A DNA stretch of 64,000 nucleotides, taken from NCBI GenBank assembly GCA_025057975.1, contig JANWUV010000005.1:1-64000 (forward strand), written 5' to 3'. Position numbers and translations under genes: made by a program. The notes beneath the pieces were generated by a model. That model was given only the letters and a program-made list of their open reading frames with translations. It did no database searches and was not told the origin of the DNA. This document shows, one piece after another, positions 19,426-39,006 of the stretch; the stretch's first letter is position 1, and each line of letters opens with the position of its first letter. Origin of the DNA: Chloracidobacterium sp. GTDB lineage: Bacteria; Acidobacteriota; Blastocatellia; Chloracidobacteriales; Chloracidobacteriaceae.

Positions 19426-20418
19426 TCAGTTCTCAATGACGAACGCCCCCATGCGGCAATAGCGGGCGTACCGTTGCTCGATCAGCTCCTCCGGCGACAA
19501 CGTGCTTAGTTCCTTGAGGTACTTGACTAGGTAGGGACGCAGCGCCTCGGCCGCCGCCTTGTGATCAGTATGCGCGCCTTCGCCCGGTTCAGGGATGATG
19601 TCGTCAATAATGCCGGCTGCTTTGAGCGGCTCTGGCGTGATCTTCATCGCAGCGGCGGCTTTGTCCGCTTGGCTCGCATCACGCCACAGAATCGAAGCGC
19701 AACCTTCCGGCGAAATGACGGAATAAATCGTGTTTTCCAACATCAACATCCGATCACAAGCCCCGATCGCGAGCGCGCCGCCTGAGCCGCCCTCGCCGAT
19801 AATGACGCCGATTGTCGGCGAAGGCAGCCGCATCATTTCAATGATGTTGCGCGCAATGGCCTCGCCCTGTCCACGCTCTTCGGCCTCAATACCCGGATAC
19901 GCCCCCGGCGTATCAATGAACGAAATGATCGGACGCCGAAACTTTGCTGCCATCTGCATCAGCCGGATTGCTTTGCGATAGCCCTCCGGTTTTGGCATGC
20001 CGAAGTTGCGGTATTTGCGGTCCTCCATCTTGCGCTGTTTGTAGTTGGCCTTTTGCTGCCCAACGATGAAAACCGGTTCGCCCTCAAACCGCGCAAAGCC
20101 GCAAACAATCGCTGGGTCGTCGGCGAAACGTCGGTCGCCATGGAGTTCATGGAAATCCGTAAACAGTGCATAAATGAAGTCCAACGCATATGGACGGTCA
20201 GGATGCCGGGCAAGCCTGACGCGATCCATCGGCGTCATTTCCTTGGTGCCGCTTGCGTCACCAAGAATTGCCTCCTGCAACTCTCGCACCCGCGCCTGCA
20301 AACGGAGAATCTCCTCATCTTGCGCCGACGTGTGTGGGGCGGTGGCGAGTTGCGCCAGTTGGGCTTCCAAGGCTTTGACCTGTGCAGCTTTTTCCGTTGA
20401 TGACATGCCGGAACTCAT
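19426..20418 (-). CDS. accA: Acetyl-CoA carboxylase carboxyltransferase, alpha subunit
   Basis: A 330-residue subunit that, with AccD, moves CO2 from carboxybiotin to acetyl-CoA in fatty acid synthesis. An N-terminal coiled region (KAAQVKALEAQLAQL) is followed by the crotonase-like core with RPYALDFIYALFTDFHELHGDR, GMPKPEGYRKAIRLM, and FIDTPGAYPGIEAEERGQGEAIARN. IIGEGGSGGALAIG comes next. The length fits AccA (about 320). The start may be at the internal ATG at 20406. accD is not in the window. Confidence 0.96.
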   Translation of the reverse strand: MSSGMSSTEKAAQVKALEAQLAQLATAPHTSAQDEEILRLQARVRELQEAILGDASGTKEMTPMDRVRLARHPDRPYALDFIYALFTDFHELHGDRRFADDPAIVCGFARFEGEPVFIVGQQKANYKQRKMEDRKYRNFGMPKPEGYRKAIRLMQMAAKFRRPIISFIDTPGAYPGIEAEERGQGEAIARNIIEMMRLPSPTIGVIIGEGGSGGALAIGACDRMLMLENTIYSVISPEGCASILWRDASQADKAAAAMKITPEPLKAAGIIDDIIPEPGEGAHTDHKAAAEALRPYLVKYLKELSTLSPEELIEQRYARYCRMGAFVIEN

Positions 20419-20618
20419 CAGAACGCGAAAAGTTGATGGGACGGGCCAAGATAGTTGACTCTAATCAGCCGCTTGTACCACGACAAGTTTTACGCGACGG
20501 TTTTATCGGCGATGGCCGTCTGATGTGGTGCGCCCTTGCAGCGCCGCGCCGACTCGTTTACGTTCGTGGCTGTTTTATGCGCCCTTTTACTGGCAACTTT
20601 CAAAAGGAGACGAATTGT

Positions 20619-20840
20619 ATGCCCCAGGGAACCTGTCCTGAGTGCCAGGCGACCGTCCACGTAGATGAAGATGCTGACAAGGGCGAGCTCATCGAGTGTG
20701 ACGAGTGCGGCGCGGTGCTGCGGTTGGTCGGTCTTGATCCGATTGAACTCGATCTTGAGTCCGACTATGACGACGAAGATGACTATGACGACGAGGATTA
20801 CGACGATTATGATGATGACGACCAGGACCGGTACTACTAA
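20619..20840 (+). CDS. LysW-like zinc-ribbon protein with Asp/Tyr-rich tail
   Basis: A 73-residue protein. Residues 5-45 follow the amino-group carrier protein LysW: CPEC (6-9), GELIECDECGA with CxxC at 27-30, then LVGLDPIELD. LysW carries lysine or arginine intermediates on its C-terminal Glu, in the ending EDWGE. Here that ending is missing, and the protein continues in a strongly acidic Asp/Tyr stretch ending DRYY. Carrier chemistry on a terminal Glu is therefore not possible in the known way. A good ribosome-binding site (AAAAGGAGA) precedes the ATG. No lysine or arginine biosynthetic gene is nearby. The fold call is firm; the function is unknown. Confidence 0.75.
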   Translation: MPQGTCPECQATVHVDEDADKGELIECDECGAVLRLVGLDPIELDLESDYDDEDDYDDEDYDDYDDDDQDRYY

Positions 20841-36072: not shown

Positions 36073-36344
36073 AAACACCCCCATTTCACTGTACAAGTTA
36101 CAACGAGGTTAGTGGATGCTAGGCGGCTTGTCAAGTTTCTTGCGCGCCGCCGCCTAACGGCGCGCAAGAAGCCGCCACGGCGGGGTGAAATTTGTGCTTT
36201 CTGAAGAAGTGGGTTGTGTCGTTTCCAAAAGTGTACGAAAATGTACTTAACCGTCGAGCATCCACAGGCTCTGACGAGTCTCGTCCCCGGCGGCTTCGGT
36301 CCGCTGACGACCGGCGGAGACGCAGCCGCCACGGGAGTTTCGCC

Positions 36345-36944
36345 ATGTCGGCGCCAATCGCCAAAACGTTCGATAGTATTGTTCACCACCTCAACGCGCG
36401 GACTGAGCAGAACGGAGGCGGGCTGCCGGTGACGGAAACCGACACGTTCCGCACTCTGAACTTTTCACTCATGCTCAGTATCTCGCACTACATTGAAGAC
36501 CGCTTCATCGAGAAGGGGCTTTCAGGCCTCTTTATCGCCTCGTTTCAGAAGTTATCGCTGTTTTTGCCGCAGCAGGAGCGGTACGCCACCATCGCCAAGA
36601 CCTCGCAGGCGGTCTGGATTATCGGCGAACCGGACATTACACCGCCTGCTGTAGCAGAGCGCATTCGGTTTTTCCGTCCCGCCGACTGTGAGTGCCAAGA
36701 CTACTGGATTGTTCTCAGCGATGATCCTCGTTTCCGCATCGCCCTATTTGCCCGTGAACGACGGGATACCGCCCGCCCGGCGGCGTCCGGCAAGAACGGT
36801 TATGCTAGGGGCAAGCGAAGCTTCGAGGGGTTCTGGACCTACCGGGATGAGTACATAGACGCCATCCGCAACAGCGTTCAGACGCACTACGCCCGCCCAG
36901 AATACTTGGTCTTACCGCAAACGGACACCTTAGTGGTTTCCTAA
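36345..36944 (+). CDS. Stand-alone DICT sensory-domain protein
   Basis: A 199-residue soluble protein that matches the DICT domain pattern: LMLSISHYIEDRFIEKG, LFIASFQKLSLFLPQQERY, AVWIIGEPDITPP, then DYWIVLSDDPRFRIALFARE and FEGFWTYRDEYIDAI. DICT is a sensory domain found with diguanylate cyclases and two-component proteins and linked by context to light responses. Here it is alone, with no output domain. The ATG at 36345 follows GGGAG. The gene converges on the ubiquitin-like gene; whether they work together is unknown. The 270 bases between the tRNA-Gly and this start hold no other gene. Confidence 0.65.
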   Translation: MSAPIAKTFDSIVHHLNARTEQNGGGLPVTETDTFRTLNFSLMLSISHYIEDRFIEKGLSGLFIASFQKLSLFLPQQERYATIAKTSQAVWIIGEPDITPPAVAERIRFFRPADCECQDYWIVLSDDPRFRIALFARERRDTARPAASGKNGYARGKRSFEGFWTYRDEYIDAIRNSVQTHYARPEYLVLPQTDTLVVS

Positions 36945-36966: not shown

Positions 36967-37212
36967 CTAACCACCGCGCGTGTTGAGGAAGATCCCAATC
37001 GTGTCCCCGGAAACGACGCCGACCTGAGCCAGCGTTTGGTGGGGACGTAACTGCACATTGCGGAAGACAAGCGTTGTGCCCGGTACGTTTGGAATAATGC
37101 CGGCCTCCACGAGGTTTCGCACAATGGCGTCCGCCGTCATATCGTCGGAAACGGTAACTTCAACTTCCTTCCCGTTGTTTTCGTTGCGAAATGTAACGTC
37201 AACATCCGCCAT
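36967..37212 (-). CDS. Ubiquitin-like beta-grasp protein ending in Gly-Gly
   Basis: An 81-residue protein beginning MADVDVTFRN. The strand-strand-helix-strand pattern of ubiquitin is visible: two strands in residues 4-22, a helix at TADAIVRNLVEAG (26-38), a strand at TTLVFRN, the turn VQLRPHQTLAQVGVVSGDTI (53-72), and a last strand IGIFLNTRGG. The protein stops directly after Gly80-Gly81, so no protease is needed to expose the tail. Helix and turn resemble the YukD/EsaB group more than MoaD/ThiS, but the free GG fits activation by an E1. The E1-like gene is two genes upstream on the same strand. It is probably the activated or conjugated component of the set at 36967-38950. Target unknown. 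Confidence 0.8.
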   Translation of the reverse strand: MADVDVTFRNENNGKEVEVTVSDDMTADAIVRNLVEAGIIPNVPGTTLVFRNVQLRPHQTLAQVGVVSGDTIGIFLNTRGG

Positions 37213-37248
37213 GGAAACAACCTCGACTTAGGCTTTCAACCTCTTGGC

Positions 37249-37572
37249 TTACAGGGTGTAATGGCGACAACGGGTACAGTACCCTGTTTGCGCCTCAAAA
37301 CGGTCACCCTGGTGGCAAACTTCGCACCGCGCTGGGCGTTCAGCGCGTCTGACCCGAAAGGTCTGCGCCGAACCATCAAACCGGGCAAGGCCGTAGGTGC
37401 GCTGATGCAGGTCCGCGTAGTAGCGACGCGGCAGCAGCAGGGAATCGCTCGATTGGCGGCCGTCTTCAAGCGCGCGGCGTCCGTCGTAATAAAGCTCATA
37501 GACCTCAAAGCCGCAGGACACGACGAAGATCAGAAGGAAGAGCAATGTCCCGAGAACCGCTACGCCTTCCAT
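37249..37572 (-). CDS. Membrane-anchored zinc-ribbon protein in the ubiquitin-like set
   Basis: A 107-residue protein. One transmembrane helix at about residues 4-25 is followed by a polar linker with acidic and Arg patches. A C-terminal putative zinc site has CEVC (83-86) and CTRC (99-102), with His at 87 and 104. Two CxxC pairs 12 residues apart could form a zinc ribbon; a full RING cross-brace (eight ligands) is not present. The gene lies between the E1-like and ubiquitin-like genes (gaps of 70 and 36 bases). An adaptor that brings the system to the membrane is possible, but no known family is recognised. AAAGGAC precedes the ATG. Confidence 0.7.
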   Translation of the reverse strand: MEGVAVLGTLLFLLIFVVSCGFEVYELYYDGRRALEDGRQSSDSLLLPRRYYADLHQRTYGLARFDGSAQTFRVRRAERPARCEVCHQGDRFEAQTGYCTRCRHYTL

Positions 37573-37642
37573 CGGTTTGCGTCCTTTCTAGGCCATGGGG
37601 TGCCTTGCCCTCCTAAGAGCTGTTGAACAGCTTTGGAGTCCT

Positions 37643-38950
37643 CTAACTAGCGCTAGTTTTTTCTCGACCGCTGCCCGCCTCAGCACGTCCCCAATCGCCG
37701 AGCGTTGTCGCCAGATCACCCGTCAACTCACATGACCAGTAACGTCCCTGTCGATCTTCGACCGTTAGAATATGCAACGGGGGGATGCCAAGTTGCCGTA
37801 ATGTACGCTCCGCCGTGTCATCCGTCAGCGGTTGGTCACCGAAGCGATGACGTGAAAAACGAGTAACGACCTCAATATAGCTTTCTCTTTCATAGCTTTC
37901 TTTGGCGGGCGTGCGTAACGACTCACTTATAGCAGAAGCGTTAGCGGTTTGACAGGGCGCACAGATCAACTCGTCGTCATAGAGCTGGTGCGCCGCTCGT
38001 TCAATCACGAGCGAACACCCACAACGACGGCAGGCAATGCGCCGGATGTAGCGCCGGTCGAGATGCACCTGCACGCCGTCACCCAGCGTCTCCTCCAAAA
38101 CATCAAGCGTCTGTTCCAGCGTGGCGTCTGCGCCAAGCGGCAGCTCAATGACGGTCTCAAGGCGACCGTGGGCAAGGCAGTACGGATCGTACGGCAGCGT
38201 GATGGCGTGAAACCCATGCGTCCAACCGTTGTAGACATAGCGCACGCCAAAGGCGACCGGCTCACCGTGAATGACTTTCAGCGCCTCCTGAACTTGCAGC
38301 GCCGAGGTTAACGCCGAGGTTACTTGGATGGTGGGAAGACGCTCCTCCGCAAGGTAACGCCGCCGTACCTGCTCGCAGGAGTCGTAGCGTGAGCGTGCAT
38401 CGGCAATCTGGTCGGGCGTCGCTGCGCAGGCAAAGCAGGGCCCTTCATCCGGCGCAAAGACCGTGATGCTTCCGGTCAATTCGTGCATCCCGGCATTGAT
38501 CCAAGGAACGCCGACGGCGCGGGCGGCCCGGTTAATGCTCAATCGCGCTTCGTCGTTATCGACGCAGCCCAAGATCAGGTCAACCCGCCGAAAAACCCCC
38601 AAACCGACATCCCATACCAAGTCGGCATCCAGCGCGCGCACACCGCTGGTGGCCTCACGGCACAGAGCCTGCACCCGCTCAGCAGCGACCAGCGCCTTCC
38701 GCCGCCCAATGTCGGAAGGATGGAAGAACACTGTCCGGCTAAGGTTGGAAGGCGCAATGTCGTCGTTGTCCACAATCAACAACCACCGTGCGCCTAGCAG
38801 CGCTAAGTTCTTGAGGGTTTCATTGCCTAGCGCCCCGGCTCCGGCCACAAGGATACGCACCGACCGGAGCGTCTCCTGTCGCCACCAACCCAATCGTTCT
38901 TGCCGGTCAAAGAGAGACTCCACAGGTGACGCTTCCGCCGAACCTTTCAT
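37643..38950 (-). CDS. ThiF/E1-like ubiquitin-activating-type enzyme with extra zinc ribbon
   Basis: A 435-residue protein. Residues 12-230 are the E1/ThiF/MoeB adenylation domain: VAGAGALGNE (35-44), VDNDDIAPSNLSR (60-72) with the nucleotide Asp and Arg finger, DIGRRKA (80-86), GCVDNDEAR (128-136). CFAC (172-175) is the first half of the zinc site. Cys192 in DSCEQV stands near the place of the E1 catalytic Cys. The second zinc half appears as CLAH (258-261), CxxH in place of CxxC. A C-terminal region with an added zinc ribbon (CRRCGC 307-312, CAPC 330-333) and about 100 further residues is not seen in MoeB or ThiF. It would adenylate the GG tail of the nearby ubiquitin-like protein. No E2 or JAB gene is adjacent. 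Confidence 0.85.
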   Translation of the reverse strand: MKGSAEASPVESLFDRQERLGWWRQETLRSVRILVAGAGALGNETLKNLALLGARWLLIVDNDDIAPSNLSRTVFFHPSDIGRRKALVAAERVQALCREATSGVRALDADLVWDVGLGVFRRVDLILGCVDNDEARLSINRAARAVGVPWINAGMHELTGSITVFAPDEGPCFACAATPDQIADARSRYDSCEQVRRRYLAEERLPTIQVTSALTSALQVQEALKVIHGEPVAFGVRYVYNGWTHGFHAITLPYDPYCLAHGRLETVIELPLGADATLEQTLDVLEETLGDGVQVHLDRRYIRRIACRRCGCSLVIERAAHQLYDDELICAPCQTANASAISESLRTPAKESYERESYIEVVTRFSRHRFGDQPLTDDTAERTLRQLGIPPLHILTVEDRQGRYWSCELTGDLATTLGDWGRAEAGSGREKTSAS

Positions 38951-38971: not shown

Positions 38972-39006
38972 GAAAAAACTTGACCGTAGCTTTCGGCTAC
39001 GGTCAA
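38972..39006 (-). terminator. Rho-independent terminator between the TPR gene and the E1-like gene
   Basis: TTGACCGTAGC (38980-38990) and GCTACGGTCAA (38996-39006) form a perfect 11-bp stem with a five-base loop. On the reverse strand it is followed by GTTTTTT. It ends the Exb/TPR unit 38 bases after the TPR stop codon, and only 22 bases before the E1-like start, so that gene needs its own promoter inside or above the hairpin, or depends on read-through. Confidence 0.85.

Follow-up and report, generated by a model that had tools for sequence, protein, structure and literature searches.

The window, i.e., the whole analyzed stretch of 64,000 nucleotides, belongs to a Chloracidobacterium genome of 3.52 Mb and carries on its minus strand three neighboring genes, as the original prediction had described. 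The first (37643..38950) encodes an E1-like activating enzyme of 435 amino acids, identified by a Pfam ThiF match, PDB matches, the alignment and structure matches. The second (37249..37572) encodes a protein of 107 amino acids (TM protein) with a hydrophobic N-terminal helix and a C-terminal RCE(V/I)CHQ...CxRC motif, and the third (36967..37212) a ubiquitin-like protein (Ubl) of 81 amino acids, recognized by Pfam Rad60-SLD and its fold model, which ends in LNTRGG directly followed by a TAG stop codon. The intergenic gaps are short, 70 bp between the E1 and the TM gene and 36 bp between the TM and the Ubl gene. A DICT-domain gene (36192-36944, plus strand, assigned by Pfam) converges on the Ubl gene, and such a gene adjoins the trio repeatedly in Chloracidobacterium genomes. 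Upstream of the trio we read the open reading frames as a TPR-ExbD-type-ExbB-type-TonB-type cluster. A terminator-like hairpin with a T-run (38980..39006, minus strand) was found by a pattern scan 3′ of the upstream TPR gene. As this hairpin stands before the E1 gene the trio is probably a separate transcription unit, a weak argument when taken alone, as the scan found one site and shuffled sequence averages 3.4.

We searched 58 genomes including that of the window (G000) for the Ubl; 14 of them belong to the order Chloracidobacteriales of the class Blastocatellia (Acidobacteriota), in which NCBI places the genus, and several of these 14 are draft metagenome bins. The Ubl is present in all 14 and was not found above noise in the other members of the class in this search, where the one marginal match (E 0.008) contains an internal stop. 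The E1 gene was found in 13 of the 14 genomes, the exception being the fragmented assembly G008, in which the Ubl gene adjoins a TM gene that is cut off by the contig end. Wherever the E1 gene is found the gene order E1-TM-Ubl is kept (13/13), and the co-occurrence which the original prediction had proposed to check thus extends to 12 further genomes with adjacent genes. In G010 (L045, 10428-11117) two tandem, diverged one-helix CxxC genes lie between the E1 and Ubl genes. Among 84,980 species genomes there are nine Ubl loci. The records are titled Chloracidobacterium, Blastocatellia or Acidobacteria, and one is an Actinomycetota-labelled bin, whose scaffold name reads 'Acidobacteria' and which gives the same match as the G008 contig.

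The Ubl gives a Pfam match to Rad60-SLD/SUMO-like proteins (2.5e-6, over the cut-off) and weaker ones to ubiquitin and YukD (the latter 4.5e-5, under the cut-off), and NCBIfam gives no family for either the Ubl or the TM protein. Its AlphaFold2 model (pLDDT 91, with a flexible tail) has the ubiquitin fold, so that the predicted beta-grasp protein was borne out, and the best PDB matches of this model are ubiquitin, NEDD8, SUMO, ISG15 and the Caldiarchaeum ubiquitin (TM about 0.8, Z about 13). In the 14 genomes 49 of the 81 positions are invariant, among them residues 7-25 and the IFLNTRGG at the C-terminus. All 14 proteins contain exactly one lysine, K15; this includes those of the low-GC genomes, in which the E1 and JAB proteins have about 5% Lys. 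A HMMER alignment places G14-K15 on G10-K11 of ubiquitin; that Ubl chains form via K15 is possible, but at present a guess.

The C-terminal GG, whose lack of conservation had been named as a point that would speak against the prediction, is present in 14/14 Ubl proteins. A stop codon directly after GG, as in the window's gene, is however not the rule: only G000, G002 and G005 end in this way, and in the other 11 genomes the frame continues for 1-26 residues with tails unrelated to each other. Three of these tails consist of a single residue (A in G011, S in G013, H in G012) and the others are longer, up to about 26 residues, with 16 residues in G001. Within the genus the Ubl coding DNA is 78-88% identical through GG, the next 30 nt only 10-43%. 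Since conservation ends at GG and the downstream DNA drifts, the residues beyond GG show no sign of constraint. We also considered whether the GG end merely reflects the chance position of a stop codon and rejected this, as conservation halts at GG in all relatives. Because adenylation needs a free glycine carboxylate, the relatives with tails must mature a Ubl precursor.

That the largest protein is a ThiF/E1-like enzyme was confirmed. Pfam ThiF matches with 4e-46 as a single adenylation domain (residues 24-258 of 435), and the PDB sequence matches are the activating enzymes of ubiquitin (UBA1), SUMO (SAE2), NEDD8 and UFM1 (UBA5) together with ThiF, MoeB, MccB and Cap2. In the alignment the nucleotide motif and Cys192 (RYDSCE) are kept, the latter invariant and by its position a candidate catalytic, thioester-forming cysteine. 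Two zinc-type sets are invariant too, C172, C175, C258 and H261 (CxxC/CxxH) and, toward the C-terminus, C307, C310, C330 and C333. The structure model reaches a modest pLDDT of 65; its top matches, at Z about 25, are MoeB and ThiF, and SAE2, UBA3 and UBA1 are matched as well. Against SAE2 and UBA1 the aligned ends extend to model residue about 412 with high rmsd, which hints at best at a ubiquitin-fold, E2-recruiting domain at the C-terminus. The large inserted Cys domain of eukaryotic E1s is missing, and this counts against a role in conjugation.

The middle protein has, as predicted, one helix and two CxxC pairs. It diverges fast, down to about 27% identity, save for RCE(V/I)CHxxDxF...CxRC...T, and its four cysteines are invariant in the alignment. 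Its place is fixed as well, always between E1 and Ubl; no Pfam family matches above the cut-off. We consider it probably a membrane-anchored, cytosolic zinc ribbon. A c-type cytochrome or another redox protein anchored in the membrane would fit the CxxCH found in every aligned copy, which could also be a heme site, and there is a weak Cytochrome_C7 match under the cut-off (E 0.014). We regard this as improbable: the second invariant CxxC has no adjacent histidine, which points to a metal site of four cysteines, basic residues after the hydrophobic helix suggest from the sequence a cytosolic C-terminus, and the position between E1 and Ubl is constant throughout the order. That the putative zinc ribbon acts as an E3-like adaptor of the Ubl system is a guess, to which we give somewhat less than even chances. 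Membrane binding, which the original prediction had ascribed to the whole system, is suggested by the sequence for this protein and not for the other components. A Prok-RING_1 protein as E3 was rejected, since a search for this RING family gave no match in 16 genomes, those of Chloracidobacteriales included. With Prok-RING_1 searched there is no recognized E3 in the system, which also counts against the conjugation reading.

Known bacterial operons of this kind usually carry an E2 and a JAB peptidase, and the lack of both had suggested a minimal system with a distinct layout. Near the trio both are indeed missing, but they are encoded elsewhere in the same genome, and the idea of a minimal system had to be given up: searches with the proteins of the sister family gave one E2 and one JAB match in each of the 14 genomes of the order. 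In the sister family these genes form one operon with the trio, E1-TM-Ubl-E2-JAB in G011 and G013, with one gene inserted between E2 and JAB in G012, while in G010 E1-TM-TM-Ubl-E2 stand together and JAB is found at another place. The E2 gene of the window's genome (182 aa, L086) starts at G000:C5:213352 on the same contig, ~175 kb from the trio, and JAB lies on another contig (G000:C20, about 19934-20704, L087). Three separate loci, E1-TM-Ubl, E2 and JAB, are the arrangement in Chloracidobacterium. In G007, G008 and G009 E2 adjoins JAB, both apart from the trio. The three-locus split is not an assembly artefact because it is seen also in the two-contig assemblies G001, G005 and G006. Judged from these arrangements, the layout of the window is operon dispersal and not a distinct minimal system.

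All 60 PDB matches of the E2 (60/60) are E2/UBC-fold proteins. The motif HPHVW(P/S)DGK(I/V)C is found, and HPH and the catalytic-type Cys95 are invariant in the alignment. The match to Pfam UQ_con is significant, yet remains under the family cut-off, a further point against conjugation. JAB passes the Pfam JAB cut-off and carries the JAMM motif HTHPGFGVFMSGTD; a pattern check showed the motif intact in 13 JABs, and visual inspection showed the same for the 14th. The pairwise distances of Ubl, E1, E2 and JAB correlate with r 0.91-0.97 (78 genome pairs), the mean distances being 0.16 for Ubl, 0.22 for E2, 0.38 for JAB and 0.40 for E1. Such a correlation is as expected for vertical co-inheritance and would equally result from a species history in common. 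We infer that the system is vertically inherited in Chloracidobacteriales.

Gene linkage, co-conservation, motifs, fold and the unconstrained tails were computed in this analysis. Very probably, then, a complete ubiquitin conjugation system of eukaryote-like type is encoded at dispersed sites in the window's genome, and the trio forms its activation part. Motifs and homology suggest the following catalytic steps. JAB would cut off the residues beyond Gly81, a step needed in the relatives, the window's gene ending at GG already; by analogy with the action of BilC on BilA (PMC11354881) JAB probably is the enzyme that trims the precursor. E1 would adenylate the carboxylate of Gly81 and then hold the Ubl as a thioester at Cys192, from where it would pass to Cys95 of the HPH-type E2. 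The E2 would join the Ubl to target amines, perhaps with guidance from the membrane-anchored zinc-ribbon protein, and JAB would undo the linkage. A fuller picture, in which a bacterial order uses a housekeeping Ubl system with a tailed precursor, E1 and E2, the membrane-anchored zinc-ribbon protein as an E3 of a novel type and possibly chains via K15 (the K11 position of ubiquitin), is speculative and as a whole rather unlikely to hold.

The same conjugation chemistry could also serve anti-phage defense as in Bil and probably Bub. Bacterial E1-E2-Ubl-JAB operons with known phenotype are defensive (PMC13373217, PMC11354881), and a relative in G015 is accompanied by a TIR-type protein. The system of Chloracidobacteriales is however present as a single copy in 14/14 genomes and dispersed, unlike mobile defense cassettes. 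No defense genes adjoin the trio, where PADLOC gives weak matches only, and no Ubl relatives were found in collections of plasmids, phages and viral contigs, from which records near the window may be missing. A defense function is therefore in our view unlikely.

The original prediction had left the choice between protein tagging and a sulfur carrier. The ubiquitin-like activation module has stood up, whereas the sulfur carrier has lost much of its appeal. In that case the Ubl, like ThiS, MoaD or Urm1, would be converted by E1 to a thiocarboxylate that serves the synthesis of cofactors, tRNA or cysteine, and JAB would only trim the tail. E1 is a single-domain ThiF-type enzyme with MoeB and ThiF as top structural matches, and a cysteine near the position of Cys192 is also usable by ThiF-type enzymes. 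On the other hand an E2 with an invariant catalytic cysteine is co-conserved in 14/14 genomes, and the listed neighborhoods of the trio, E2 and JAB show no linked sulfur-metabolism gene; the trio has no linked sulfur or cofactor genes and its E1 no rhodanese domain. The role is very unlikely given two further ThiF paralogues of the sulfur type in the genome, a fusion of MoaD-like, MoeB and rhodanese parts and a MoeB-like protein. A YukD-like role of the Ubl as a structural or adaptor protein that is not conjugated, as the sub-threshold Pfam match might suggest, is hardly conceivable given the invariant GG with an unconstrained tail behind it, the co-conserved E1, E2 and JAB and flanks free of ESX/type VII secretion genes.

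A proteasome link was considered as well and dropped, as there is no link between PF00227 proteins and the Ubl loci. By our reading of the sequences the stronger PF00227 match of each genome looks HslV-like. A second proteasome-family protein occurs in 13 of the 14 genomes of the order (L133, L134, L135); that of the window's genome (L133, G000:C15, 5619-6347) reads as Anbu-like and adjoins an alpha-E-type gene, and those of G010 and G011 look different from it.

In the phylum as a whole an E2 profile search matched in 13 of 396 Acidobacteriota genomes, eight of them in Chloracidobacteriales. G219 (L125, 7265-13579) has a compact E1-Ubl-E2-JAB operon, the Ubl ending in ...EGGLR, beside genes that we read as type VI secretion-like; the opposite strand encodes a CxC...CxxC protein with a membrane anchor. 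In G041 (L049, 5364-10891) and G017 (L050, 4035-10885) we find E1, a two-domain Ubl without GG end, E2, JAB with a hydrophobic stretch at its C-terminus and a vWA-RING membrane protein, with Prok-RING_1 matched in L049. The locus of G015 (L051, 9701-14704) looks like a defense island and comprises E1, a TIR-like protein seemingly with Ubl-like repeats, a Ubl-E2 fusion and a JAB-like protein. G081 (L126, 7669-9003) has a compact Ubl-E2-JAB set with no E1 adjoining and a Ubl without GG end. With similar cassettes scattered in the phylum, it seems that one lineage has fixed its own version.

The 14 genomes sampled from the order all retain the complete system, and its modifier changes very slowly, which suggests a core cellular use, whereas the bacterial Ubl operons with known phenotype act in defense. 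As a bacterial model it would allow ubiquitin-like conjugation and precursor processing to be studied, and it includes a putative membrane-bound partner in which E3 function may be sought. A cultured species of the genus is Chloracidobacterium thermophilum.

Prokaryotic operons with E1, E2, Ubl and JAB were predicted as types 6a-6e (Iyer et al. 2006, PMC1779556). The literature calls these operons sporadic (PMC1779556, PMC4197634), and Acidobacteria are named among the bacteria with related operons (PMC4197634). The four components are the same here, and E2 and JAB are separate proteins as in type 6d, whose E2, however, lacks the classical histidine, whereas the E2 described here has HPH. With Bil (BilABCD), as described in a review (PMC11354881), the system shares E1, E2, JAB and a Ubl with a processed C-terminus. 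BilA, however, is a two-domain Ubl and the Ubl here a single domain of 81 amino acids, the Bil E1 combines an inactive and an active adenylation domain in contrast to the one ThiF domain here, and BilB has a CEHH motif where our E2 has HPH before the cysteine, a comparison made at the level of motif descriptions.

The cluster of Caldiarchaeum subterraneum (PMC4197634, PMC11354881) likewise consists of a single-copy ubiquitin, E1, E2 and a JAMM protease, and the Ubl structures match (TM about 0.8). It differs in the RING E3 of its five-gene cluster, compared with no Prok-RING_1 protein here, and in the roughly 60 amino acid Cys domain of the archaeal E1, missing from ours; its genes are clustered, those of Chloracidobacterium scattered. 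Compared with eukaryotic pathways the E1 is simpler and there is no known E3 and no proteasome link. Ubiquitin, NEDD8 and SUMO nevertheless resemble the system in the fold, the R-GG end, the precursor tail, the E1-E2-JAMM logic and a lysine at the K11 position of ubiquitin, and as in pro-SUMO conservation stops at GG and a tail follows. Such operons are already known from the literature, Acidobacteria included; the version described here differs from the operons of PMC1779556 in being order-wide and dispersed and in its one-helix CxxC protein.
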